The position numbers and the translations under genes were made by a program. Source: Acaryochloris sp. CCMEE 5410 (GTDB taxonomy: Bacteria > Cyanobacteriota > Cyanobacteriia > Thermosynechococcales > Thermosynechococcaceae). Taken from it: a stretch of 64,000 nucleotides of DNA. The notes under the pieces are model-generated. The model had not been told where the DNA came from. It ran no database searches and was given only the letters and a program-made list of their open reading frames with translations. The stretch covers positions 372,001-436,000 of the forward strand of contig NZ_AFEJ02000001.1 of NCBI RefSeq assembly GCF_000238775.2, read 5' to 3'. Shown here piece after piece: positions 3,001 through 55,654 of this stretch; the stretch's first letter is position 1; every line of letters begins with the position of its first letter.

Positions 3001-4700
3001 TCAATGCTTGTAAGGTGCATCTATTCCTCTACGACAAGCCTACCCATACCCTAACTCAGCGCGTTGCCGTACAAGACGGACATATTTATCTCGGTGCTGG
3101 GCCAAACGACCCCGAAATGCTCAGCCATCCTATTCCAGCCGATATAACCCCTGGGTGGGATGCCATCATCAATGGTGAACGTCCCCTCACCTATGACGAG
3201 ACCCTGCCCTACGACGAAGAAATTTGGTGGCCAGAAACGTTAGTGTGGCACAAAGCACAGGGTCATAAGGCGATTACCTGTATTCCCATGAAAGCAGGGG
3301 ATGTACCGATTGGTTACATTGGATTCTGCTTCTACGATCGCACCGTCCTCAGCGATGAACAGCTCGAATTTATGCAAGCGCTGGCGAACCAAGCGATTGT
3401 TGCCATTCAACTCACCCGCCTAGCCGATGAAGCCAAACAAGCCGCAATTTTGCAAGAGCAAGAAAAGGCTGCCCGAGAACGAGCGGCAGAGCTGGCGAAG
3501 ACCAATGAGGCCATTTCTCAAACTCTGGATGCCCTCACCACTGAGCCAGAACTAGATCGTTTCCTCGGTCAAATCTTGACCCAAATCATCGAGCAAATCG
3601 GCGCGGATGATACCCACCTCTTTTTGTATGATGCCGAAACCCATACCTTGCACTCCCAACTTGCCGTTCAAAACAACACGGTCTATTCAGGCAATGCCCC
3701 TGGCGATCCCGAAATTTTCCACACCGATATTCCAGTTGATATCACCGCATTTTGGCAAATCCTCCTTAATGCCCCTAAGCCAGTTACCCTGGATGAAAAC
3801 AATCCTGATGCAGCAGAATTCTTCTGGCCGACAACCGTAGAGTGGCACACCTCCCGAGGCCACCAGTCTGCCACCTGTGCTTGTATGAAAATCGGCAACC
3901 AACCCATTGGATTTATTGGGTTCGCCTTTTGCGATCAGACGGTTCTCAGCACAGAACAGCTCGAATTTGTCCAGGCTCTCACTAATCAAGCCACCCTCGC
4001 CATTCACCTCACCCGTCTGGCGGAGCAGGCCCGCACCAATGCCCTTACTGATGAGCGCAACCGACTGGCCCGCGAAATCCACGATACCCTGGCCCAGGCA
4101 TTCACGGGCATCTCCCTGCAGTTGGAAGCCGCTAAAAATATCATGAACCAACAGCCGGAAACTGCAAAAAGCTATCTCGACCAGGCCCGCGACCTCACCC
4201 GTCAGGGACTCTCTGAAGCCCGTCGTTCGGTTCACGCCCTGCGCTCCCAAGCACTGGAAAGCGAAACGCTTGTCAAAGCGCTCCAGAAAAATCTTACCCA
4301 GATGACTCTCAATACGTCCTTACAGACTGAATTCCAAATTCAGGGGACTCCCATTCTTCTAGAAGAAGGGCTGCAGCTCAATCTCCTCCGCATTGGTCAA
4401 GAAGCCATAACCAACGCCCTCCGCCATGCCCAGGCTCAAACCCTCACCGTTACCCTGACCTTTACGGACCAAGAGGTTAGCCTTTGTGTCACGGATGATG
4501 GCCTGGGCTTTGAACCCCAAGATGTGGCAGATATAGCAGGATTTGGACTAGTGGGGATTCGTGAGCGCACGGCCCGTTATCAAGGCCAAGTCAAAATCAC
4601 CAGCCATCCGAGTGAGGGAACCACAATAGAAGTGAAGTTGCCAGTGCAGCCCAAACCATCCTCCCCAGGTAGGGAAGAGGATGGCAGAACTGGACGTTGA
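1..4700 (+). CDS. Multi-GAF NarL-type sensor histidine kinase (5' end outside window)
   Basis: The reading frame is open to the left edge of the window, and the first visible residues already lie inside a GAF domain, so the true start is upstream; the TTG at 111 is only the first internal start-like codon. I count seven GAF domains joined by short helical linkers rich in Arg/Glu/Ala. GAF1 (partial), 6 and 7 are of one subtype and GAF2-5 of another, which suggests growth by internal duplication. The last ~200 residues hold a HisKA_3 dimerisation box (EIHDTLAQ, His 1324 counted from codon 111) and an HATPase_c domain (N box in QEAITNALRHA, G box in DDGLGFE). No membrane segment is visible, so it is probably a soluble kinase working with a NarL/LuxR-type regulator outside this window. 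None of its GAF domains shows the Cys-His pair expected of a bilin site. The ligands are unknown. Confidence 0.93.
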   Translation, partial: EENVAYLEQVVINGEVLTGEQLGGHHGINGLSIPPELIKADDLSKRTQYVEIDISPNNPFVEPLYDNLYSWCRDRGVDLPDHAINFPIILGQQSLGAIAIFLPKERELSEETIKLGYALANQVALAMQLTQLAEETKQTALLQERETVAKARIAELAERDRILEATAAAANIMLTDENFDSAINTALAIVGHGLEVDRILLGQHIDASSTEEPIYIQFLNEWVSAGTTSQIEHPELVKVSDEGIEFIYESLRQGQIFGGIIDELPEPFRSGQIELGVKSTYSIPIMVEGDYWGVIAFDDCHQLTRRSEAELEALKTLANCIGSAIARDRTRKEREAAAQAYAAELETHNLELANRDRILEATAAAANVLLTDKDFEGEIKQALQLIGEAVGTDRVGIAQHLEDLTETSPGHWLVIHEWSIPEMTPVADLCYPDPMQGTYGGAEQLYKIHQRGESFSIKTEQMMEPFRSSMAFMNIQTLHAVPIILREQYWGTVVFGDCRQQRQRSVAELTALQTVADCIGNAIDRDRIRKAREAAERTALIERERAARAVELEAANQVLTTRDRWLETTATAANQLLTADISTSVNTALQTIGTNLESDRLGVMRHVADATELGHFQILYEWDSAGTAAQIDDLELHQMPASDFAEWTWHLMTGQPVGGPVEEQPEPFRNTMRSLGTLSTYAVPIFIETEFWGVMFMDYCRELRQLTSAELAVFKTVATCIGSAIYREQMSCDREQAERDTLLQHEREQAAQKRAAALEIYNRQLQQRDTLLNSVNAAAQSLVANEDLATALPTMLKILGEGTGQCRAYILRNSLDEQTGQLLFNLMLEWDAPQIPSKMEVGAHFPVPIDRFPDHLTAPLKAGRATQFLASELDGIKPADRQPGQVLSLVGVPITVGGEWWGLLGLDDCVEERVWSDTEIAVLETAASAVGGAVERDRSRQARETAEKAVLAEREKAARERAAELAKTNEAIARSLTSLVASPELDQFLGAIIAEMARQLNACKVHLFLYDKPTHTLTQRVAVQDGHIYLGAGPNDPEMLSHPIPADITPGWDAIINGERPLTYDETLPYDEEIWWPETLVWHKAQGHKAITCIPMKAGDVPIGYIGFCFYDRTVLSDEQLEFMQALANQAIVAIQLTRLADEAKQAAILQEQEKAARERAAELAKTNEAISQTLDALTTEPELDRFLGQILTQIIEQIGADDTHLFLYDAETHTLHSQLAVQNNTVYSGNAPGDPEIFHTDIPVDITAFWQILLNAPKPVTLDENNPDAAEFFWPTTVEWHTSRGHQSATCACMKIGNQPIGFIGFAFCDQTVLSTEQLEFVQALTNQATLAIHLTRLAEQARTNALTDERNRLAREIHDTLAQAFTGISLQLEAAKNIMNQQPETAKSYLDQARDLTRQGLSEARRSVHALRSQALESETLVKALQKNLTQMTLNTSLQTEFQIQGTPILLEEGLQLNLLRIGQEAITNALRHAQAQTLTVTLTFTDQEVSLCVTDDGLGFEPQDVADIAGFGLVGIRERTARYQGQVKITSHPSEGTTIEVKLPVQPKPSSPGREEDGRTGR

Positions 4701-4717
4701 TTCTAGCTTTGCAAAAC

Positions 4718-44428: not shown

Positions 44429-44821
44429 TTAAGGAATTTGAGTGGTAACTTGTCCTGGATAAGTTATCTGAATTACCCCTCCCCAAGTACAAAAGCACTT
44501 AGACGTATTGTTTAATGCCGGAAAATTATTGATTAGAACCGTTGGTGAACCTGGTGTCCAAGGGGCTGGAATAACGGGGATACAGGGCATCGGGGTAAGA
44601 ACACCCATTGCGGCGGCTGTTGCCGAGGCGACCGTCGGGTTCGCCAGGGAAGAACACATGCCAAACGGTGGAATATTGGCAATGGGGGCATAGTCCATAA
44701 TGGTGGCGGCAGCGGGTCCCCCCGTCAGAACTGGTGGTCCTTTGGGAATCACAATCAAAGAACTAGGCGCTGCTCCAAAAGAACATTGTAAGGACGCCCC
44801 CATGACGACTTGTTGTCCCAT
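44429..44821 (-). CDS. DUF4280 PAAR-like spike-tip protein of a contractile injection system
   Basis: 130 residues with Gly/Pro/Ala-rich composition, an N-terminal MGQQVVMGASLQCSFG and several Cys residues, as in DUF4280 proteins. These replace or resemble PAAR proteins, which cap the VgrG spike and sharpen the tip. It is the last gene of the minus-strand injection-system operon, 22 bases after vgrG, which supports this role. No effector extension is present. Confidence 0.85.
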   Translation of the reverse strand: MGQQVVMGASLQCSFGAAPSSLIVIPKGPPVLTGGPAAATIMDYAPIANIPPFGMCSSLANPTVASATAAAMGVLTPMPCIPVIPAPWTPGSPTVLINNFPALNNTSKCFCTWGGVIQITYPGQVTTQIP

Positions 44822-44843: not shown

Positions 44844-46802
44844 TCAATTGATCTTTACGATTGAGCCCTTGATGGTATTCACCCCAGAGGCCTGAACGGT
44901 CACCAAAGCCCCATCAATTTTGGTTTGGGCAGTTCCTTTGATCGCAGCCTGAACCCCCTGAATCGTGACACCAGAATTGCTGAGTTCAATCGATGAGCTA
45001 CCCACTTTTAACGTAATTTTGGTCGTTGCCGTCAGGGTGATTTCGCCTGCATTCAGGCTGATTTTCCGCGAACTGCCGCTGGTCCCGGATTTAACATTGA
45101 TATCTCCCGTCGAAATCATATCGATCTTGGCGGAGCCATTATCATCCAGTAAAACTTTATGACCCCCTTTGGATTTAATTTCTAGCTTTTTGCCTTGATC
45201 ATCCAGCCGAGCATAATGCCCCTCTTTCGTTTTTAATTCTGCGAACTTTTCACTGTCATTCAGATACAGATGATGGCCATACACCGTATCTAAATAAATG
45301 CCTTTCTTTTTAGCATCTTTATCCGCTTCTACAAATTGGAGGGTATGGCCCGTGCGAGTTTTTACTGTTCGGAGATTGACCTTGCCATCGACAATGGAAC
45401 TCTCCACTTTCTCTGGAGGACTATCCTTGCCATTCCATACCCCACCCACAATATAGGGACGGTGGATATCGCCATGTTCAAACCCCACTAGCACCTCATC
45501 ATCGACTTCGGGTAAACAGTCAAAACCTCGATCTTTCCCGGCTCCACTGGCCACGACTCTGGCCCAGTTGCTCTCATGCTCCTCCGTCAGGGTGGGAAAC
45601 TTGACTCGAACTCGTCCCCAACCTTTTGGGTCCTTGTTATTCGTGACTTTGCCCACTAACAGGGTTTGCCCCGCCTGCAGCCGTTGAGAGGGAGCCAAGG
45701 TTGAGAGTAAATCGCCTCCCCGTAACCCCCGCACGCTGAACTCCGTGGAATAAACCCGATCTTGAAATAAATGGCGCGTTTCAGTGATGTAGTACTTGCC
45801 GCTGTATTTGCCCATATCTTTGAGTTGGACTACCTGCCCTGTTCTCAAATCAGGATTACCCTCAGCTCTAGCATCCGCCACCACAAACTCTCCTCCCAGT
45901 TCATCAATCAGAGCCTGGGCGATGGTATCGGCTTCCTTGGCACTAAAGACGGGTTGATCCACCACAATCATTTTGGGCGTCGTCGGTTTGCCATTAAAGA
46001 CAGTGCTTTGCTTCTGGCCGGAGCCATGATCGGTGGAGGTTAGTAGTTTCTCGCTATTTTTAGTGGAGACGATAGCTTCCTTGCGTTCATAATCCCAGCC
46101 CCGCACTTCAACACTTTTAACCTGTTCGGCACTGGTAACTCGCACTCGAAAGCTATGCAGATCCTTGAGCCAGGTTAGGGAAATATTGGAATTGGCTTTG
46201 GGCTTCCTAAAATTCATCTTGCCGTCTTGAACATAGAGTTCAAACCCATTCCGGGCTGCCCGCTCCCGTAGAAATTCCATATTGGTCTGATTCTCTTGAA
46301 AAATATAGTCATGGGGAGACCCGCTATTATCGATGGTGCCAGCGGGGATTCCGACTTCTCCAATCAATTTCTTGACTACATCCGTGTCGGTCATATTCTG
46401 GAAGGACCGATTGTAGCGACCTCGATGGAGTCGGTGGGACGTGTCGTAGCCCCGAATCACGATAGGGGCTTGGGAACTCGCAGTAAAGTTCGTCTCCATA
46501 CCGGTGATTTCTCCATCCAGCACATAGCCCTGATTCTCTTCATCAAAGTCCTGGGCTTCGGTGGTGCTGCCACTAAAGCCGATTTTGATGGTTTTACCAA
46601 TCTGAAATAGATCGTCATATTGCCAAGGGGCATCAACGGAACGGCCAGAAAAGTAGTCGTTCTTAATCACCAAGACAAACATGCCAGGTAGGTGCAAGCT
46701 TTCTTCCACGGAAATCTGGAGAATATCTTCCATCAGCTCGTTGGACGCTTTTTTGCCATCAATTTCTAAAAGTGGCTCGGCAATGTAGGTGGTTGCAGGC
46801 AT
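44844..46802 (-). CDS. VgrG-type spike protein (gp27/gp5-like) of a contractile injection system
   Basis: 652 residues. The N-terminal ~370 form the gp27-like hub (phage late-control D type). A gp5-like OB-fold follows (~378-460: LVGKVTNNKDPKGWGRVRVKF ... VGFEHGDIHRPYIVGGVWNG), and then a C-terminal beta-helical needle with alternating KIT, ITLTATTKITLKV-type repeats (~490-652). It forms the trimeric spike at the baseplate centre. It lies between the tube-adaptor gene (25-base gap) and the DUF4280 tip gene. No C-terminal effector domain is seen. Confidence 0.93.
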   Translation of the reverse strand: MPATTYIAEPLLEIDGKKASNELMEDILQISVEESLHLPGMFVLVIKNDYFSGRSVDAPWQYDDLFQIGKTIKIGFSGSTTEAQDFDEENQGYVLDGEITGMETNFTASSQAPIVIRGYDTSHRLHRGRYNRSFQNMTDTDVVKKLIGEVGIPAGTIDNSGSPHDYIFQENQTNMEFLRERAARNGFELYVQDGKMNFRKPKANSNISLTWLKDLHSFRVRVTSAEQVKSVEVRGWDYERKEAIVSTKNSEKLLTSTDHGSGQKQSTVFNGKPTTPKMIVVDQPVFSAKEADTIAQALIDELGGEFVVADARAEGNPDLRTGQVVQLKDMGKYSGKYYITETRHLFQDRVYSTEFSVRGLRGGDLLSTLAPSQRLQAGQTLLVGKVTNNKDPKGWGRVRVKFPTLTEEHESNWARVVASGAGKDRGFDCLPEVDDEVLVGFEHGDIHRPYIVGGVWNGKDSPPEKVESSIVDGKVNLRTVKTRTGHTLQFVEADKDAKKKGIYLDTVYGHHLYLNDSEKFAELKTKEGHYARLDDQGKKLEIKSKGGHKVLLDDNGSAKIDMISTGDINVKSGTSGSSRKISLNAGEITLTATTKITLKVGSSSIELSNSGVTIQGVQAAIKGTAQTKIDGALVTVQASGVNTIKGSIVKIN

Positions 46803-46827: not shown

Positions 46828-47403
46828 TTAGCGACCAAAGGTTGTTCGGTTAGAACGACTATCCTGGGAGCGATTGGGAGAGGCAGACTGGCTTCCCCCT
46901 GCTAAGCTTGATTCGTCAATTTCCTTTAGGGACATATCGACTCGGGCTTGGACAGGGGTACCGTCCGGTAAAAATAAGGTGAGTTTGTAGGTAATTTGCT
47001 CGACAAAACAGCGTAAATATTGCTGGTCTCCCCAAGTGAAGATATAGATGGGCGGTCGTTTGTTGGCAGCGTCGCCACTGTCATCAAAGTCCAAAGCTTT
47101 GATCAATTTGCTGACATAGGCATCAATCACACTGGTCCCTTGTTCGTAGGTATCAAACAAGATATTGCTCAAGGACAGAGAGCAGGCTTCTGGGTAGGCA
47201 AAGGTGACCTTGGGTAATCCCTTAGCAGTTCGTGCCCCTTGGCTTTCATTCAGACGCATCGACTGCTGAAAGACCAACTCTGTGGGGTTGAACATAAATT
47301 CAATATCTTTACTCTTGTCCGTGGGTTGGTGGACTAAAGTTGCTTTGGCTAACTTGCCTGAGGCAACAGCACTATTATTGCTGCGAGAACCACTATAGGT
47401 CAT
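46828..47403 (-). CDS. Tube-initiator / baseplate adaptor protein (Afp7/gp53-like CIS protein)
   Basis: 191 residues. It opens with a charged tail, then the conserved block FMFNPTELVFQQSM, a region with RPPIYIFTWGDQQYLRCFVEQ, and ends with VDMSLKEID, the layout of eCIS proteins that link spike hub and first tube ring. The usual C-terminal LysM domain is missing; the C terminus is a short Ser/Arg-rich tail. It follows the giant gene by 29 bases and precedes vgrG by 25. Confidence 0.88.
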   Translation of the reverse strand: MTYSGSRSNNSAVASGKLAKATLVHQPTDKSKDIEFMFNPTELVFQQSMRLNESQGARTAKGLPKVTFAYPEACSLSLSNILFDTYEQGTSVIDAYVSKLIKALDFDDSGDAANKRPPIYIFTWGDQQYLRCFVEQITYKLTLFLPDGTPVQARVDMSLKEIDESSLAGGSQSASPNRSQDSRSNRTTFGR

Positions 47404-47432: not shown

Positions 47433-50400
47433 TCACCACGGTAAACGACCCGATTGATACCCTCCGTGTCTCTCTCGCTCCACTTCTAGGCGCTGTCGGA
47501 GGACGTGATAGATCTCTCTTGCTAGGATTTCGAAACTTTGCTCATCTACTTCAGGTTCAGTTGACTTTTCAGCTTGGGATTGACGCATCACCACTTCTGT
47601 CATTTCGGGCGTGGATGAGATTGGGGGAGCAGTAGTTGGAGACTTTTGTAAGGGTTGAGCCGTTCGTTGGGTAAATGCTGTTTTCCTTTGGACTTGCTTT
47701 TCTGGGTGAATTCCTGTGGGGGTGAGGACTAAATCTGAAGTGTCTTCAGGGGTTGCAGTGGTTTTCTCTGCTTTAGGTTGGATGACGGATGACCGGGTTG
47801 TGAATAGGTCTTCGATACTGGACCAGTTGGAGGGGAGTGCTGGGTTGCTTGAAGATGGGATTGTGGGTGCGATCGCATCCTCCGTATTTATCTCATAGCG
47901 CTCGCTAGACCATCCTGTTTCATCATCAGCTTTTCGTTGTAATGGTGCATTCGGATTTTGAAAATCCCTTAGTTTCTGAGAATGATGTTTACGATTTGGT
48001 TGACTGGAAGGTAATAGGTTACTGATAAGTTTCGGAGAAACGAAATTGTCTGCAATGTTGGACAAGGGAGTAGGCGACTGGCCCGTTGCCAACAACTGGG
48101 CAACGGTTAGGTCTGGGGAATTCCCCTCTGGTTGTTTGGGCTCAGGTGGTTGAGCTGCTATCTCAATAACTCGACGTTGCAGAGACTCTCGTGAGCCAGA
48201 CTGAGTATCTACCGGGTCTATCGGTTGAGGACGTGAGTTGAGGGTATCTTCAGCTTGAGCTTGGTGCTGGATTGTGGGCTTCAGGGGAGACGTTGATAAT
48301 GGCTGGACTGAAGTGAGCGAGGAGTCTGAGCTATCTGCCTCTGAAGGCTGCAACTTTGAATCAGATTTTGCGGCAGGAAGTTCTGCAACCTCGGATGTTT
48401 CTCCAACAGGTGAGGAGATGTCTCTATTGGCACGGTCAAGATCTGTCTCTACCAGAGAAGAGTTGCTCTCTACAGTCCTTTGAAGAATCGGGTCTTCGTG
48501 GAGATCCGAGGATGAGCTGGACGCACTATCCTTAGGGTGTAAATTATCATTTGCGAGATTTTCGTCAGGACGTTTAGCTGGGATCTCTATAATCCGACGG
48601 TGGGGAGAATCGATCTGATCCGGTTGAGGCTGGATATGCTCTACTTTTTGGAGGGATGAATCAGCTTGAGGAAGTGCTGAAACCTGAGATTGTTCAGCAA
48701 TATTGGAAGAGGGTTTGGGATTGACAGGGTCAAGATTTTCCTCTGTCAAAGAAGAGTTGGCCTCTGAATTTCTTTGCAGGCTTTGATTTTCGATGATTTC
48801 CAGGGATGAACTGGATGAGATATCTTGATCGGATAAGTTAGCTTTTTCAATATTTCCGTCAGGATGTTGAGCTGGAATTTCTATAATCCGACGGTTTGGA
48901 GAATCGATCTGGTCTGGTTGAGACTGGATGCGCTCTACATTTTCGGGTGGAGATTCACCCAGGTTATCAGTTGGATGTTTCTGTAAATCTGGTGTTGGGG
49001 TATCAGTATTAGTGGGTTCAGCCGAGAGAGTGGGATTAGCTTGAGTCTGGCTGGTGGATAAGTCAGGGTCGGTCTTTAGCTCTGAACCAATATGGGATTG
49101 ATGTTTTGGCTGGATGATTTCTGACGTTGCTGAAATATCAGTCGGAGCAGCACTAGAATCGGGTGACTGCTCGATATCGATACTGGATGCTTGTAGTGTA
49201 GACTCTGTAGTCGCTTTAGCTACATCATTTGCAAGGGACTTATCAGTAGTTGGAGCCGTTTCTGAGTCGCGATTAGGGACAGCTTGCTGTTGGTCGGGTT
49301 GCTCTATAGGTTGGATTTCTGGGGTTGGCTGGATTTTAAGCTTATCTCCAGACTCTAGAGGTGATTCTGGGGTGCGATCGCAATTATCAAACGATTGTCC
49401 AAGGTTGTCTTTCGTAGGTTGTAGCTCCGTTGCGGGCTGGACAACAGAAATTTCAACAGCTTGAATTGGAACGGTAGAGGCTTGCTTTGATTCTAAATTC
49501 GATGGTGCTGTATGGGGCTCAGTTTGAGCTGAAGTCTCTCCTAAAATAGAAGCTTCAGAGATTTTAGGCTGAGCATTTGACGGTTTGCTGGCGTTACTGA
49601 CATCCTCCCTTGGGGGAACAAATGGCAGGTCGCTATCGATGTGAGCCTCAATCTTTCGTTGAACATTGCCTTCTTTCTCCAGGACATTACTGCTAACATC
49701 ACTACTCTTTATAGGAGCTTGAGGAGCATGATGTTTCTGAGATTCAAGATCCTTGGAGTTCCGTGCTGAATCTAAAGCTGTATTGTCAGAGTTGATCGCA
49801 GGTACATGGGTGCTTGGGACAGATAAGCTTTCAGATACTGGCTCTTCCAATGGATTCTCTTGGGCTTGAATCGTTGGGGAAGTACCAAGTGGAATGTTGT
49901 CGTCTTGTTCCTTAATTTGGGATGCTTGGACATTAGGGCTAGCCAAATTTTGACTAGCCATTCTTGAGGTATTAACGTCTAAAACTACCTCTGAACTCTC
50001 TTGAAGGTTACTTTGGCTACTCTCGCTGGAAAGCTTTTCCTGGTTTTGACTAGATTTATGGACAGATGAAGTTGGGCTAGTAGGCAATTGGGGGTGGTCA
50101 GTTGCCGATGGCTGTTCAACCTTAGTTTGAATCGAAATTTCGCTAATAGGTGGACGTTCTGAAACAGGTGATTCTGTTTCTAAAACATTTTGAGTCAGCA
50201 AGGGTTGGGTTTGAGATTCAGGCTGCTCGGGTTGAGACTGCTCTTGTATTGTTTCACGCTGGATTAAGCTGTCTGGATTACCAGATGGATCGCTTTTACC
50301 TGATACTCCTGGAGCTTCATTGAACTCTGTTGACCTCTGTATAGATCGTTCAGCTTGAGAAAGAGGATGAGAACTAGAAGTTGTAGAAGTATTTGAATCA

Positions 50401-53400
50401 TCAGAACTATCAGGTGTTGAAGATTGCTGAGGCGCAATATCCTGACGTTGAATAGCGTCACTCATACTTGTAGTAGAGACCGCTTGTTTTGCCACACCAC
50501 TTGTATTAGCGTTTGGTTTTTCTGGAGAATTGGGGTGTTCTGTTGATTGCGCAGTTTTCTCTGGTTTAGCCTGCACGTTCAGGCTCGTCGTCGAATCGGT
50601 TTTTGTAGTCTCCCTAGACATTTGTGCGGGAGACGAAACTGATTTTTGTTTCTTTGCCTTAGTTTTTGACTTATGTTTTTTAGGTTTTAGGTTGGTTAAT
50701 TGCTGGACAATGGTTGTACCTAACTTTGAAATAGGGGAATTGAAAGGACGGTTGCGATCGCGACTTTGAGACGCTTCTGGTATTGCAGTACCAAAGTTTG
50801 CTGAACTTTGGCTCGATACATTGGTGATGGGCTGCTCTGAGCTGCTTGAGCTTGCCTCAGCGCTATCCCTCTGTATTGTTCCCTCGTTCTCATGGAGCAA
50901 TGCTGGATTGTCTTGTCCTGAATCCTGCTGAGGCTCAGGAGTCTTTGCTTTATCTACAGAGCTAGATTGAATGGACGGCTCAGTCGTAAACGCTTGCGGA
51001 TGACTGATATCTTCTTGGGAAGGGGAAACAACGGAACTTGTTTCTGTTTGCACAAGACTTTCTGTCACAGCGTCAGATGTAGAGGTTAGCTGTTCTGAAG
51101 CAGTCAGTGATGGTTGTTCAATGCCATTAACTGGATCTGCAATAGACTCAGTAGTGGCTTGAATATTTTCTCCATTCAGCTCCGGTACTACAGAATTGAG
51201 TGGTTGATCTGTCTGTGCAACTCCAGATGATGTTGCTATTTGAGCCGAGTCAGTTTCATTAATTTGCGTGGGTTGAGGTGATTTTCTCCTTGAATTTTGC
51301 TTGAGTATCGACCGGTCAACCCTCTGTCTAATTTCTGAACCTAGATTTGTAATCCGATCCGCAAGCTGATTCTGAATTAATTGCCATTCAGGTATAGGGG
51401 CATTGGTTTGTGACTCCACGACTGATGCGGAGCTATGCCCTTCTTCAGGGGAGGAGGTCTCAATACTGTTCGAGGTAGGAAAGTTTACTTGCTCAGACTG
51501 GGGAGGTGAAGGGCTTGAGGATTGTGAGTCTTCAGCTTTTTGTACAGTGGGTAATTCTTGAGTTTGGAGATGATCTTCAGCATTCACATCGGTGTGGTGA
51601 TCTGTCTGGTTGTTAGGATGTGCTTGTTCATCTGAACTCAGTTCAGGCTTTGATGGGCTAGCGGTGCCTAGGCTTGTATTGGGTGAATAGGACTTCGCTT
51701 GAATGTCTGATTGAATGGACGTTGCTGCGGATTTATCTTCACTACCAATATCTTGTAAGGGTTGGGAATCTCCATTTACAGATCTGTGAAGTGAGACAGG
51801 GCTAATGGTCTGATCTTCACGCTTCTGGTTTGAGTTTTTAGGTAAATTTTGCTCTTGCTTTTGAAATGGATTAAACTCTTCATTCGGATAAGGTTCAAGT
51901 TGACGACTAACCGTGTCCATGACCTGCTGGCTGAGATGGGTCAGCCGTTTTAGGGGGTGTGCTGGTAATTGTCCCCACTTCTTTGTTTTTGGTCGGGAAG
52001 TTTCAGTCCCAGCACTTGAAGTAGCACTAGGCGATGAAGTCGTCTTTAGCTGATTTACACTAATCTCGGGTGTTGAAGATTCAGAATTATTTCGATGCTG
52101 TCCAGTAATCGTAGAATTTGAGGCTGACTCAGTCTTCTTTTGGAGGTCTGTGACTGAGTCAGATTGTATGTCTTGATTGATCGTCAGTTCAGAGGTCGCT
52201 GGAGTAGCATGAGGATGCTTTTGGGGTGAGTCTTCAGAATCAGAAACTGCTTGAACCATTGGAGAATTCTGTTCATGGTTAGCAATCTCAGTTTTCTCTG
52301 GTAAAGCATCTTCCCTGGCAGATTCCTGTGGAGAAGCTTGTGCTAAAGCCTGGACTTCACTTTGGACTAGAGGTACTTCAGGAGGTGATGGCGTTGAGTC
52401 GGGAAATGATTTGGTTTGGATAGATGGAGGGTTTGACGGCTGGGGAGAAACACCAGTGGATTTCTGCAACCCATTTACTTTGGCTTTTGATTGACCAGTG
52501 GGGAATGAATGAGATGCTTGTTTGAGCTGAATCCCAACTTTATGAATATCCTGCTTAGCTCGTTCCCCCACCCGCGATAGCCGAGCTTGTAAGGGAATCT
52601 TTTTCTGTTTGTTTTTTTTATTCTGTTTCTTCTGTTGTTTTGAAGTTGCTTTAGTGGATGCCTCGGGAGATGGTTCGTCTGCTCTTTGAATAACGGTTGC
52701 CCGTGTCGCATTCCCATCAGTTTTTTTGGTAGTGCTGGGTGTAGGGGGAGTTTCGGTCGATGCGGGAGGGGAACTAGTCGGACTAGTTTGATTCGTTTCT
52801 ATCTTGGATGTATGCAGGTGGTCAGTAGAAGATTGCTGAGCTGCCGAACTTTCTATTTTTTGAATAACGGCTGTATCGGTTTGGCTCTCGCTACTCTGGG
52901 CTGTAGAGCTTGGCATCGTAGAATCCTCAAGCAAAAAAGGCTTTTCATCTAGAGATTGCTGAGGAGATGCTTGGGCGGCTTGTTCAATAGGTGTTGTCTC
53001 TATTGATTTCCCCCTAGGTATGGTGGGAGGGCTAGATGTTATGGGTGTCTCAATTGAAGAGCTGCTATCAGTTGAGCTACTTGGGTTAGCGTCTTCTTTG
53101 GAATTTGTGAGGGAAAGCTGTTGCAGACCGTTAGGGGGAATTGGAGATGACTGGATAGTCTCACTAGCTGGTTTAGCTGTGTTGCTGTTAGTCCCTTGTT
53201 TGGATGGTGTAGTGTTAACCTGCTCGCTGTGAGCTGTGGTCTCCAGTGAAGTTTGGATTGAAATGGATTGAGATTCGATAGGTTGACTATTAAGTAAGTC
53301 CGTTGAGGTGTCAGTCCCTTGTTGGGATGATTTAGTGGCTACCTCCTTATTGCTTTGAGCTGTGGCTTCCAGCGAAGTTTGGATTGAAGCGGATTGGGAT

Positions 53401-54857
53401 TCGTTCGGTTGAGTGCTGGATACTTGCGGTTCCGGGCTAGGTTGAACAGAGATAACTGTTTTTTGGCTAGAAGGTGGAGATACTGTTGGAAGGGAGGCTT
53501 CTTTACTTTGGGTAACCTGGGTTGTTTGTGCAGATCGAACTAAAGAATGGTCATTGGTAACCGGAACTTTTTGGAGGCTCGGCTGATGAGGTGCAGAGAT
53601 GACTGAGTCTTGGGTTGGCGACGGATCATCATTTGTAGCACTAGCAGTAGGCGAAGGTCTTGGGCCTGAAGATTTAAATTCTGAGTTTAGAGAAGTGGAT
53701 TGTTCATAAGACTGGGGAAGACTCTCTTGGATTATGGAGGGTTCAGAAGCAACTTTAGTTTCCAGGATATCCTGGTGCTTCGCTTGGAGGGGGGACCCAT
53801 CAGGTGCTTCGGCAGAAGTACTCACCTCTGGAGGTATTGCTTTGGTGGTGGAATGGATGGTTGGGTTAGCCGTTTGTTCAGGCTTCTGTTTAGATTCAGA
53901 AATGGTCTGCTTAGAAACTACCTTTGATGATGTCTGGTCTCCAACAGTTTCGTCCTGTGAATAAGAAACAGGGGAAAGTGTTGATTGTTGAAGATGGGAT
54001 TTCGTGGGTGGAGGGCTAGTTTGTGAAGCTGGGTCTAGTTTAGGTTGGAGTGTTTGTTCAGGCTTTTGCTTAGATTCAGAAATGGCCTGCTCAGAAACCA
54101 TCTCTGATGATTTCTGATGGTCATGGGTGTTTTCTATTGGGGAGGGAATAGAGGAAGTTGTTAATTGTTGAAGATGGGATTTCGTGTATGGAGGGCTAAA
54201 TTTTTGAGCCTTGTCTAGTTTGGGTTGAAGCGTTATTTCAGGGCTGTTTCGTTCTTGGGCAATCTGTGTTCCTGACTCAGCTTGCTTAGTAACGGGTCTC
54301 TCCCTAGTCTCTTGTTCTCTATCCTGAGCAGGCTGAATAGAAGGGGCTGATATTTGGGGTTGGTCATTATGAACGACTGCACCAGTCTCAAGAGAGGGTG
54401 CCTGTTGCACTTTTGGTGTACTAGCGGCATAACTATCGATTTTGCCAGGGTTGTTCTGAGCGCTTGACAGTCGCTGATTGGAGGGTGTTTGTTCTAATTT
54501 GGGTTGCAGACTTTCGGTGGGTACTTTCGGAGCAAGTGTGTTGGGTTGGGTTTCAGGAGACTGAGTTACGAAGGAATCAGAAATGTTGGAATTGCCCGTA
54601 GAGCTGTTGCCGATGGCTTCTCCTGGCACCTGATTAGAAAGCTGACTACCTAGAGAATTTGTCCAAGCCGCTTCGGTCGGCAGACGGGTATCCAAATTGA
54701 TTAGGGATACAGCGCCCAAGGGAGATAGGGTATGGGGTTGGAGAAAGGATTGTCCTAGAGCTGGAGGGGGGAGCAATGGATGCTGAAGGCCAAGCGAGTC
54801 TGAGGAAGGGATCTCTTCCGATGGAGATTGATGACCTTGGCCTGAATTAACATCCAT
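47433..54857 (-). CDS. Giant 2474-residue low-complexity protein in the injection-system operon
   Basis: Mostly Ser/Gln/Pro/Thr/Glu-rich and predicted disordered, with scattered short IQR/LQPK-type motifs. Four basic amphipathic segments stand out at ~740-786, ~956-1005, ~1152-1200 and ~1372-1407, roughly 200 residues apart. Tandem repeats are visible in the DNA: ~180 bp (two copies, about 53874-54233), ~130 bp (about 53160-53420) and ~294 bp (about 48577-48938). The last ~35 residues look conserved and helical (ILAREIYHVLRQRLEVERERHGGYQSGRLPW in two overlapping parts). It sits between the tube and tube-adaptor genes. The family is not recognised. A scaffold, length ruler or tether is possible but unproven. 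Confidence 0.8.
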   Translation of the reverse strand: MDVNSGQGHQSPSEEIPSSDSLGLQHPLLPPPALGQSFLQPHTLSPLGAVSLINLDTRLPTEAAWTNSLGSQLSNQVPGEAIGNSSTGNSNISDSFVTQSPETQPNTLAPKVPTESLQPKLEQTPSNQRLSSAQNNPGKIDSYAASTPKVQQAPSLETGAVVHNDQPQISAPSIQPAQDREQETRERPVTKQAESGTQIAQERNSPEITLQPKLDKAQKFSPPYTKSHLQQLTTSSIPSPIENTHDHQKSSEMVSEQAISESKQKPEQTLQPKLDPASQTSPPPTKSHLQQSTLSPVSYSQDETVGDQTSSKVVSKQTISESKQKPEQTANPTIHSTTKAIPPEVSTSAEAPDGSPLQAKHQDILETKVASEPSIIQESLPQSYEQSTSLNSEFKSSGPRPSPTASATNDDPSPTQDSVISAPHQPSLQKVPVTNDHSLVRSAQTTQVTQSKEASLPTVSPPSSQKTVISVQPSPEPQVSSTQPNESQSASIQTSLEATAQSNKEVATKSSQQGTDTSTDLLNSQPIESQSISIQTSLETTAHSEQVNTTPSKQGTNSNTAKPASETIQSSPIPPNGLQQLSLTNSKEDANPSSSTDSSSSIETPITSSPPTIPRGKSIETTPIEQAAQASPQQSLDEKPFLLEDSTMPSSTAQSSESQTDTAVIQKIESSAAQQSSTDHLHTSKIETNQTSPTSSPPASTETPPTPSTTKKTDGNATRATVIQRADEPSPEASTKATSKQQKKQNKKNKQKKIPLQARLSRVGERAKQDIHKVGIQLKQASHSFPTGQSKAKVNGLQKSTGVSPQPSNPPSIQTKSFPDSTPSPPEVPLVQSEVQALAQASPQESAREDALPEKTEIANHEQNSPMVQAVSDSEDSPQKHPHATPATSELTINQDIQSDSVTDLQKKTESASNSTITGQHRNNSESSTPEISVNQLKTTSSPSATSSAGTETSRPKTKKWGQLPAHPLKRLTHLSQQVMDTVSRQLEPYPNEEFNPFQKQEQNLPKNSNQKREDQTISPVSLHRSVNGDSQPLQDIGSEDKSAATSIQSDIQAKSYSPNTSLGTASPSKPELSSDEQAHPNNQTDHHTDVNAEDHLQTQELPTVQKAEDSQSSSPSPPQSEQVNFPTSNSIETSSPEEGHSSASVVESQTNAPIPEWQLIQNQLADRITNLGSEIRQRVDRSILKQNSRRKSPQPTQINETDSAQIATSSGVAQTDQPLNSVVPELNGENIQATTESIADPVNGIEQPSLTASEQLTSTSDAVTESLVQTETSSVVSPSQEDISHPQAFTTEPSIQSSSVDKAKTPEPQQDSGQDNPALLHENEGTIQRDSAEASSSSSEQPITNVSSQSSANFGTAIPEASQSRDRNRPFNSPISKLGTTIVQQLTNLKPKKHKSKTKAKKQKSVSSPAQMSRETTKTDSTTSLNVQAKPEKTAQSTEHPNSPEKPNANTSGVAKQAVSTTSMSDAIQRQDIAPQQSSTPDSSDDSNTSTTSSSHPLSQAERSIQRSTEFNEAPGVSGKSDPSGNPDSLIQRETIQEQSQPEQPESQTQPLLTQNVLETESPVSERPPISEISIQTKVEQPSATDHPQLPTSPTSSVHKSSQNQEKLSSESSQSNLQESSEVVLDVNTSRMASQNLASPNVQASQIKEQDDNIPLGTSPTIQAQENPLEEPVSESLSVPSTHVPAINSDNTALDSARNSKDLESQKHHAPQAPIKSSDVSSNVLEKEGNVQRKIEAHIDSDLPFVPPREDVSNASKPSNAQPKISEASILGETSAQTEPHTAPSNLESKQASTVPIQAVEISVVQPATELQPTKDNLGQSFDNCDRTPESPLESGDKLKIQPTPEIQPIEQPDQQQAVPNRDSETAPTTDKSLANDVAKATTESTLQASSIDIEQSPDSSAAPTDISATSEIIQPKHQSHIGSELKTDPDLSTSQTQANPTLSAEPTNTDTPTPDLQKHPTDNLGESPPENVERIQSQPDQIDSPNRRIIEIPAQHPDGNIEKANLSDQDISSSSSLEIIENQSLQRNSEANSSLTEENLDPVNPKPSSNIAEQSQVSALPQADSSLQKVEHIQPQPDQIDSPHRRIIEIPAKRPDENLANDNLHPKDSASSSSSDLHEDPILQRTVESNSSLVETDLDRANRDISSPVGETSEVAELPAAKSDSKLQPSEADSSDSSLTSVQPLSTSPLKPTIQHQAQAEDTLNSRPQPIDPVDTQSGSRESLQRRVIEIAAQPPEPKQPEGNSPDLTVAQLLATGQSPTPLSNIADNFVSPKLISNLLPSSQPNRKHHSQKLRDFQNPNAPLQRKADDETGWSSERYEINTEDAIAPTIPSSSNPALPSNWSSIEDLFTTRSSVIQPKAEKTTATPEDTSDLVLTPTGIHPEKQVQRKTAFTQRTAQPLQKSPTTAPPISSTPEMTEVVMRQSQAEKSTEPEVDEQSFEILAREIYHVLRQRLEVERERHGGYQSGRLPW
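48577..48938 (-). repeat. ~294-bp coding tandem repeat in the giant gene
   Basis: Two near-identical segments encode (R)RIIEIPA(Q/K) followed by a run of serines and a (S/I)LQR motif. Their first ~68 bases (48577-48645 and 48871-48938) match closely. A diverged third copy (RRVIEIAAQPPE) begins near 48140. The unit is ~98 residues. Confidence 0.7.
53874..54233 (-). repeat. ~180-bp coding tandem repeat in the giant gene
   Basis: Two copies of a 60-residue unit encode TKSHLQQ(L/S)T ... QxISESKQKPEQT. The matching DNA blocks begin near 53874 and 54054. Both copies are in frame. Confidence 0.7.
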
Positions 54858-54869
54858 AAACTTTGCAGG

Positions 54870-55433
54870 TTAATTACTGGGATAGAATCCTCCAGCATTG
54901 GCATCTCTACCTTGTAAGAAGGTGGCCCCACCACCTGCATTGCTGCTGGGTTGCAGATTGGCAACAACCTTTAGACCTTCGTAAGCCAAGGTGAGTTCTT
55001 CGATGGCAACGGTGGAGGTATCTGCTTGGAGGGCGGGTGCTTGCCAAGCCACAGGGACTGCACCAATTAAGGTCCAGGTTTGAATGGTTTCTCCTGCTTG
55101 ATTGAACAAAAGGATATTGATGTTGCGACGTTGGGGATTGACATTACGATCGGTCGGTTCTAATTGGGTAAGCATACGACTGGCCCACCCCCAAAACACC
55201 AGATCATTAGTGATCCCCCGCTTGAGGGTGACATCGGAGAATTCAGTTTGACCGAGTATGATCCGCTGCTGGTTGTTGACGCCGCCTTCAAAATAGGTGT
55301 CATGCTTAATTTTGGCGCTTAACCCCGAACATTCAGTGAAGCAAGCACTGATGTAGCTCTTTTCTTGGATTTCGACATAGAAGCGATTGGCGGTGACGTA
55401 GTTAAGGTTATGGGTTTCACTGTTGCTAACCAC
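54870..55433 (-). CDS. Contractile-injection-system inner tube protein (gp19/Afp1-like)
   Basis: 187 residues from a GTG start, which overlaps the preceding stop by one base (TAGTG), implying coupled translation. The T4 gp19-like tube fold is marked by NRFYVEIQEKSYISACFTECSGL, then EGGVNNQQRIILGQTEFSDVTLKRG and a beta-rich half ending EELTLAYEGLKVV. The C terminus has an unusual Gly/Asn/Ala-rich tail (~165-187). Tube proteins stack as hexamers inside the sheath. The giant gene begins 12 bases downstream. Confidence 0.93.
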   Translation of the reverse strand: MVSNSETHNLNYVTANRFYVEIQEKSYISACFTECSGLSAKIKHDTYFEGGVNNQQRIILGQTEFSDVTLKRGITNDLVFWGWASRMLTQLEPTDRNVNPQRRNINILLFNQAGETIQTWTLIGAVPVAWQAPALQADTSTVAIEELTLAYEGLKVVANLQPSSNAGGGATFLQGRDANAGGFYPSN

Positions 55434-55654
55434 TAGTACCCTCCTCCGTAGGTTCGCTCGCGCTGATAATGTAAGTCGTTTTGCATCAATTCATAGATGC
55501 GATCGCATAACTTAGATTGCGCCAGAGGATCTTGCAAAATCTGGGCTGCTAATCTGAAAACCCTATCTCGTTCAGATAGCTCAGACAGTCTAGGCGAACC
55601 GTTCCCCCTTGAAATTCCCCAGTTTTCTCCTAGAGACTGATTCCCTTGGCTCAT
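55433..55654 (-). CDS. Small injection-system-associated protein, unrecognised family
   Basis: 73 residues and the first gene of the minus-strand operon. The N-terminal third is polar. The rest is helical and charged (RVFRLAAQILQDPLAQSKL) and ends LCDRIYELMQNDLHYQRER plus a Gly/Tyr tail. This end resembles the C terminus of the giant protein (shared I-Y, L, RER and GGY positions). Its gene overlaps the tube gene by one base. Function unknown; a docking role is suggested by the shared motif. Confidence 0.75.
   Translation of the reverse strand: MSQGNQSLGENWGISRGNGSPRLSELSERDRVFRLAAQILQDPLAQSKLCDRIYELMQNDLHYQRERTYGGGY

Follow-up and report, generated by a model that had tools for sequence, protein, structure and literature searches.

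A homologous C-terminal helix on a giant and a short protein of a cyanobacterial eCIS operon, and a possible plug and tape-measure-like role for the giant

In a minus-strand eCIS operon of Acaryochloris sp. CCMEE 5410, a short protein of 73 aa and a giant protein of 2,474 aa end in C-terminal helices that, judged by profile comparison, are almost certainly homologous. Our best explanation of the whole is a plug and tape-measure-like giant with a spike-docked helix, with which the short protein co-assembles; we regard this reading, in which docking, lumenal location and pairing are what we infer, as evenly poised. It builds on features established here, namely the helix homology, the C-terminal position of the helices, the selection on the protein ends, the gene slot, its occurrence in step with the absence of DUF5908 and CIS_TMP, and the charge reversal between the helices.

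The giant's extreme C-terminal helix would dock in the cavity that the VgrG spike and the tube initiator Cis7 form together, the place taken by Cis6/Alg6 in other eCISs and by the C-termini of the tape measure in phage A-1(L). The body of the giant, long and disordered, would reach into the tube lumen, the N-terminal conserved island would anchor the other end, and the long helix of the short hairpin, paralogous and charge-reversed, would co-assemble with that of the giant as one helical bundle in the cavity. Given the gene slot, docking of the giant's helix in the spike and initiator cavity is quite probable, and replacement of both plug and tape measure by the giant is moderately likely.

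The operon and its two C-terminal helices

The window, by which we mean the whole stretch of 64,000 nucleotides that was analysed, belongs to a genome of 8.1 Mb in 23 contigs. Its six-gene operon encodes, in order, the short protein, a gp19-type tube protein, the giant, Cis7, a VgrG-type hub/spike and a DUF4280/PAAR-like tip, and the short gene's TAG stop and the tube gene's GTG start share one base. The features, in positions of the window, are as follows.

55433..55654 (stop included), minus strand: short protein of 73 aa, encoded first in the operon; predicted to form a helical hairpin whose second helix is long
55436..55510, minus strand: C-terminal motif of the short protein, LCDRIYELMQNDLHYQRERTYGGGY; almost certainly homologous to the giant's C-terminal helix, charge-reversed at several positions
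54870..55433, minus strand: tube protein of the gp19 family in the Cis5 position (PF06841, E 2.5e-36)
47433..54857, minus strand: giant slot protein of 2,474 aa, rich in Ser/Pro/Gln/Thr and for the most part predicted to be disordered; directly 5' of Cis7, proposed plug and tape-measure-like protein
54678..54803, minus strand: island conserved near the giant's N terminus, about residues 19-60, LGLQHPLLPPPALGQSFLQPHTLSPLGAVSL (dN/dS 0.06)
47682..54509, minus strand: disordered body of the giant, with 16 short motifs [VIL]Q[RPAMT]K or [VIL]QR[SQE] (shuffling expectation 0.9)
47799..47843, minus strand: WSSI box, PALPSNWSSIEDLFT, at residues 2339-2353 of the giant; recurs in relatives, mostly 100-250 aa before the C terminus
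47436..47555, minus strand: C-terminal end of the giant, residues 2435-2474, made up of the helix (predicted by AlphaFold2) and the GGY/GRLPW tail; dN/dS 0.04, and conserved in relatives at their very C terminus
46828..47403, minus strand: tube initiator CIS_tube, Cis7 (PF19266, E 1.4e-18)
44844..46802, minus strand: VgrG-type hub/spike, Cis8, proposed docking partner (PF04717 and PF05954)
44429..44821, minus strand: PAAR-like spike tip, DUF4280 (PF14107, E 1.3e-37)

Membership of an eCIS is evident in the operon, where a gp19-type tube, a CIS_tube/LysM initiator, a VgrG spike and PAAR occur together, and in the genome, where a sheath, Pvc16_N, an AAA ATPase and eCIS_core proteins are all present. 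Another contig carries the sheath, three further tube-like proteins, two Pvc16_N, the AAA ATPase and eCIS_core proteins, the sheath cluster and the spike operon lying on different contigs; the eight eCIS_core matches of the genome are scattered across several contigs. Over 171 aa, the window's Cis7 matches that of an Acaryochloris MAG at 100% identity.

The short protein ends LCDRIYELMQNDLHYQRERTYGGGY and the giant ends LAREIYHVLRQRLEVERERHGGYQSGRLPW; an earlier note on this DNA had drawn attention to both C-terminal sequences, and both are present exactly as it quoted them. The 19-residue cores align without gaps with 7/19 residues identical, which is weak if taken alone. Comparison of the short and giant families with hhalign gave a probability of 95% (P 1.3e-8 to 1.8e-8), and the profile-profile score was 39.1, whereas 200 column shuffles reached 15.1 at most and profile reversal gave 8.9. 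To control for what charged amphipathic helices score in general, we compared the giant's profile with the unrelated helical C-termini of DUF5908 and phage tape measures and obtained 9-12. In a held-out test, profiles from one locus set were tried on 73 other loci (7,254 ORFs) from species related to those used in training: the best 12 non-slot matches of the giant's profile were all short proteins, and the best 24 non-short matches of the short profile were all giant-type slot proteins, a cross-family result that is independent of the kinship between test and training species.

On the strength of the shuffled, reversed and unrelated-helix controls and of this reciprocal detection, we take the helices to be homologous; a chance likeness of two amphipathic charged helices, which might appeal to the core identity of the window pair alone and to the commonness of RER endings in helices, is extremely improbable, since the same controls and held-out matches exclude it. 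That a profile should link both proteins in relatives had been set beforehand as a point on which the proposal could fail, and the two were linked in the held-out loci. Calling them otherwise unrelated, as the earlier note did, was too strong: because their shared end is a homologous helix, they are not wholly unrelated.

AlphaFold2 predicted a helical hairpin for a 52-aa fragment of the short protein (helices 7-19 and 22-48, pLDDT 88), and for the giant's last 150 residues a helix at 111-140 as the sole confidently ordered element (pLDDT about 80-97; the rest about 50-65). Against a congeneric relative (G005), dN/dS was 0.04 in the giant's 40 C-terminal codons, 0.06 in its N-terminal island and 0.44 in its body, and 0.03 in the last 35 codons of the short protein. 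Strong purifying selection acts at the two ends of the giant and not on its body. Neither motif had a meaningful match in Pfam, PHROGs or NCBIfam; the PDB returned chance matches only, such as FOXP3 and RGS10, by sequence and by profile, and tblastn against 50,697 phage records returned no match. In our search of the open-access literature, neither a giant protein in the Cis6 slot nor the short protein turned up.

Opposite charges on the two helices

The shared end had been proposed to be a docking tag for a common partner in the particle. That it is a functional element inside the particle is supported by the purifying selection, by its fixed C-terminal position and by the strict slot beside the tube initiator and VgrG, and the idea of the same tag on both proteins is probably an oversimplification. 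When helix positions were compared across 74 giants and 30 short proteins, the hydrophobic positions (-3, 1, 2, 5 and 9) and E14-R15 were common to both helices, and several charges were reversed: position 8 is R/K in 73/74 giants and D/E in 30/30 shorts, position 0 is E in 55/74 giants and R/K in 24/30 shorts, position -1 is R/K or neutral in 73/74 giants and D/E in 27/30 shorts, and at position 10 the charges are also opposite, more weakly. Position 8 lies on the hydrophobic face of a helical wheel, and an R8-D8 pair could form a polar layer of a mixed bundle. In type-B genomes that lack the short gene, position 0 of the giant is K or A instead of E in six of seven, these seven genomes probably standing for two independent lineages only.

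The charge reversal, together with the altered position 0 where the short gene is absent, favours hetero-pairing in the spike cavity over two uses of one tag, and direct pairing of the short protein with the giant's helix, as read from these substitutions, is plausible at just under an even balance. Were the two helices instead docking tags, each binding on its own to the one partner they share (VgrG, Cis7 or the tube) and neither touching the other, one would expect what is indeed found in part: homologous helices encoded in one operon beside the hub genes, with the hydrophobic face and E14-R15 in common. A systematic reversal at -1, 0 and 8 is unexpected for two copies of a one-site tag, and the usual change at the giant's position 0 in genomes missing the short gene likewise speaks against it, so that we consider separate binding rather unlikely. 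As to the partner, VgrG and the tube were on the earlier list of candidates, and the cavity of the VgrG/Cis7 spike and tube initiator is the most likely site; a common third partner fares less well, the opposite charges fitting mutual pairing. The short profile found no match in the seven type-B genomes, and the short protein is therefore not universally required.

The slot 5' of Cis7 and its occupants

With the giant's last 43 residues as query, matches were obtained in 19/292 cyanobacterial genomes, a sample with one genome per species and with gaps in places. The ORFs that end in the motif differ greatly in length, and at nearly all examined loci they stand immediately 5' of Cis7. When named genomes were scanned with an alignment of Cis7, 79 loci were obtained, all of them cyanobacterial according to their record titles and some of them one contig present in both collections, across which the order short - Cis5 - slot protein - Cis7 - VgrG (- PAAR) recurs; the short gene stands directly 5' of Cis5 in 42/50 loci of type B, the window's type, with Cis5 within reach. 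The slot proteins range from 141 to 3,110 aa, a 22-fold spread. Most of those of 266 to 3,110 aa have the N-terminal island 'PLGIKNPLL...LGQ.FL.P.FL.PLG' in common, and most also carry the C-terminal helix and, usually 100-250 aa ahead of the C terminus, a 'P.SWSSI.EL' box; the linker in between varies freely. In the slot proteins of L052, L056, L126, L127, L128, L131, L135, L136 and L170, the helix motif is present twice in tandem.

In Anabaena, the slot directly 5' of Cis7 (All3321) holds the plug Cis6 (Asl3322; PDB 7b5h chain AL). At divergent loci, the ORF in this place encodes a DUF5908 plug in three, a Nostoc-type protein with the end pattern 'IDVDALADKVERKIMRRLVIESERRG' in about eight, a 632-817 aa protein in three prophage-like loci that is called tape-measure-like by its length, position and N terminus and has no Pfam tape-measure match, and in one a protein that contains eCIS_core and whose end looks helical. 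The prophage-like loci are L157, L164 and L169, in each of which the next gene encodes a CIS_tube/Cis7-like protein; L164 and L169 are also IMG/VR viral contigs. In the genome G047 (L155:8669-9952), the plug-slot protein, of 428 aa, has an eCIS_core domain and looks like a fusion of a plug and a cargo-associated domain. Weak matches of the giant's profile in four divergent-locus genomes fall exactly in the slot 5' of Cis7, and the Nostoc-type slot helices matched the giant's helix with P 1.2e-9.

The tube-facing spike cavity is plugged by trimers of Cis6/Alg6, and Alg6 is required for assembly (PMC8894136; PMC8894135); in phage A-1(L), three tape-measure C-terminal helices, arranged as a tripod, are intertwined with the spike (PMC10966104). 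Among PDB entries, the tube initiator of this Anabaena myophage is the closest relative of the window's Cis7. Like the giant, the DUF5908 plug (Cis6/Alg6/Afp6/Pvc6; PF19265; PDB 7b5h chain AL, 7aef chain t) is encoded directly 5' of Cis7 and has a helix at its extreme C terminus, predicted in the giant, with a proposed site in the spike cavity. The giant differs from it in size (2,474 aa against about 50 aa), in having no sequence match to it, in lacking an N-terminal DUF5908 strand and in having a paralogous short partner. Homology of the giant's helix with the DUF5908 helix was considered and rejected, the profile comparison giving no significant similarity. The thylakoid-anchored CIS of Anabaena (all3313-all3327) is, like that of the window, a cyanobacterial eCIS with Cis5, Cis7, Cis8 and PAAR; unlike it, it has the 50-aa DUF5908 plug Asl3322, and its paper describes no giant slot protein or short partner.

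The tape measure of A-1(L), gp13, is like the giant long, encoded after tube and chaperone-like genes and provided with a C-terminal helix near the spike, a location proposed for that of the giant. Known tape measures are helical, whereas the giant's body is predicted disordered and is Ser/Pro/Gln-rich, and the sequence link is weak and runs only through the Nostoc-type relatives (P 6e-4; a non-significant P 0.055 for the giant's own helix against phage tape measures). With the eCIS tape measure Cis14/Afp14 (CIS_TMP, PF19268) the giant would share a lumenal location. In contrast to systems with Cis14/Afp14, the window's genome has no PF19268 match, and it has no PF19265 (DUF5908) match over the cut-off.

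Among the 292 cyanobacterial genomes, PF19266 (Cis7) occurs in 33, and DUF5908 and CIS_TMP both occur in the same three of these (G118, G201 and G219) and in no other; the chance of the same three recurring if drawn at random from 33 is 1 in 5,456, phylogeny ignored. This coincidence indicates that small-plug eCISs also carry a separate tape measure, and that genomes with only the slot protein are without both. Taken with the chaperone-like genes, the phage-like gene order and the Nostoc-type link, it suggests that the undivided phage arrangement has been retained, or regained, in the slot protein. A tape measure of fixed ratio was judged unlikely for the whole family, given the 22-fold spread of lengths, which makes a simple length ruler unlikely. 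By a rough estimate, the dry volume of three 2,474-aa chains equals about 97 nm of a 3.6-nm-wide lumen, and three giant chains would thus fit an eCIS-sized tube only if tightly packed.

The body of the giant is enriched 29-fold in [VIL]Q([RPAMT]K|R[SQE]), against 1.4-fold for background ORFs, and the same kind of motif is enriched in eCIS_core cargo proteins ([VIL]QR[SKQE], 59 against 1.9 expected). The repeated motif [VIL]Q[RPAMT]K / [VIL]QR[SQE] is common to the giant's body and to eCIS_core (DUF4157) cargo (L174-L203), well above shuffles; a published survey detected no conserved cargo-loading sequence (PMC11297309). These motifs, the eCIS_core domain inside one slot protein and the freedom of the bodies to vary would suit a giant that is itself a very large cargo or effector-like protein, its C-terminal helix a loading anchor to the spike and plugging secondary. 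We think this improbable: no toxin or enzyme domain recurs among the scanned slot proteins, their N-terminal island is conserved, and the slot is otherwise occupied by structural plug or tape-measure proteins.

Should the plug and tape-measure-like reading of the giant be correct, a positional rule, 5' of Cis7, would be available for locating a missing plug or tape measure, a C-terminal anchor would hold very long disordered chains within the injection tube, and the plug would be of two components whose pairing is testable in vitro. Haloarchaeal eCISs have been reported without cis6 and cis14 homologs (PMC11566945) and gut eCISs without Cis6 (PMC12210884); if the ORF 5' of Cis7 serves both functions whatever its sequence or length, such scored absences may have a simple explanation. 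More broadly, and only tentatively, many cyanobacterial eCISs without Cis6 and Cis14 might have both tasks done by one protein of 141 to 3,110 aa, its helix being half of a charge-complementary hetero-bundle with a small paralog and its cargo-motif body perhaps scaffolding lumenal loading; in this full form we think the idea somewhat unlikely.

The short gene and its upstream neighbours

In co-linear loci, the short gene is preceded by tail-assembly-chaperone-like and DUF6760-type genes. This order, and the charge complementarity of the short protein to the giant's helix, could point to an assembly factor, a placeholder or chaperone that, before assembly, occupies the giant's site or holds its helix and that mature particles no longer contain. 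Such a role is quite improbable in our view, as the short protein has no chaperone-family match and its homology is to the structural helix of the giant, not to chaperones; the short protein of the window and two relatives had no Pfam match, neither to PF20546 nor to a phage tail-assembly-chaperone (TAC) family. Homology of the eCIS chaperone-like genes to gp11/gp12 of A-1(L) was not established. Identity of the short protein with DUF6760 was also considered and rejected, DUF6760 being a separate gene in L048. At that locus, the tail-assembly-chaperone-like ORF (4183-4569) overlaps the DUF6760 ORF (4515-4709) in another frame, an arrangement that recalls the G/GT frameshift in phage tail chaperones.
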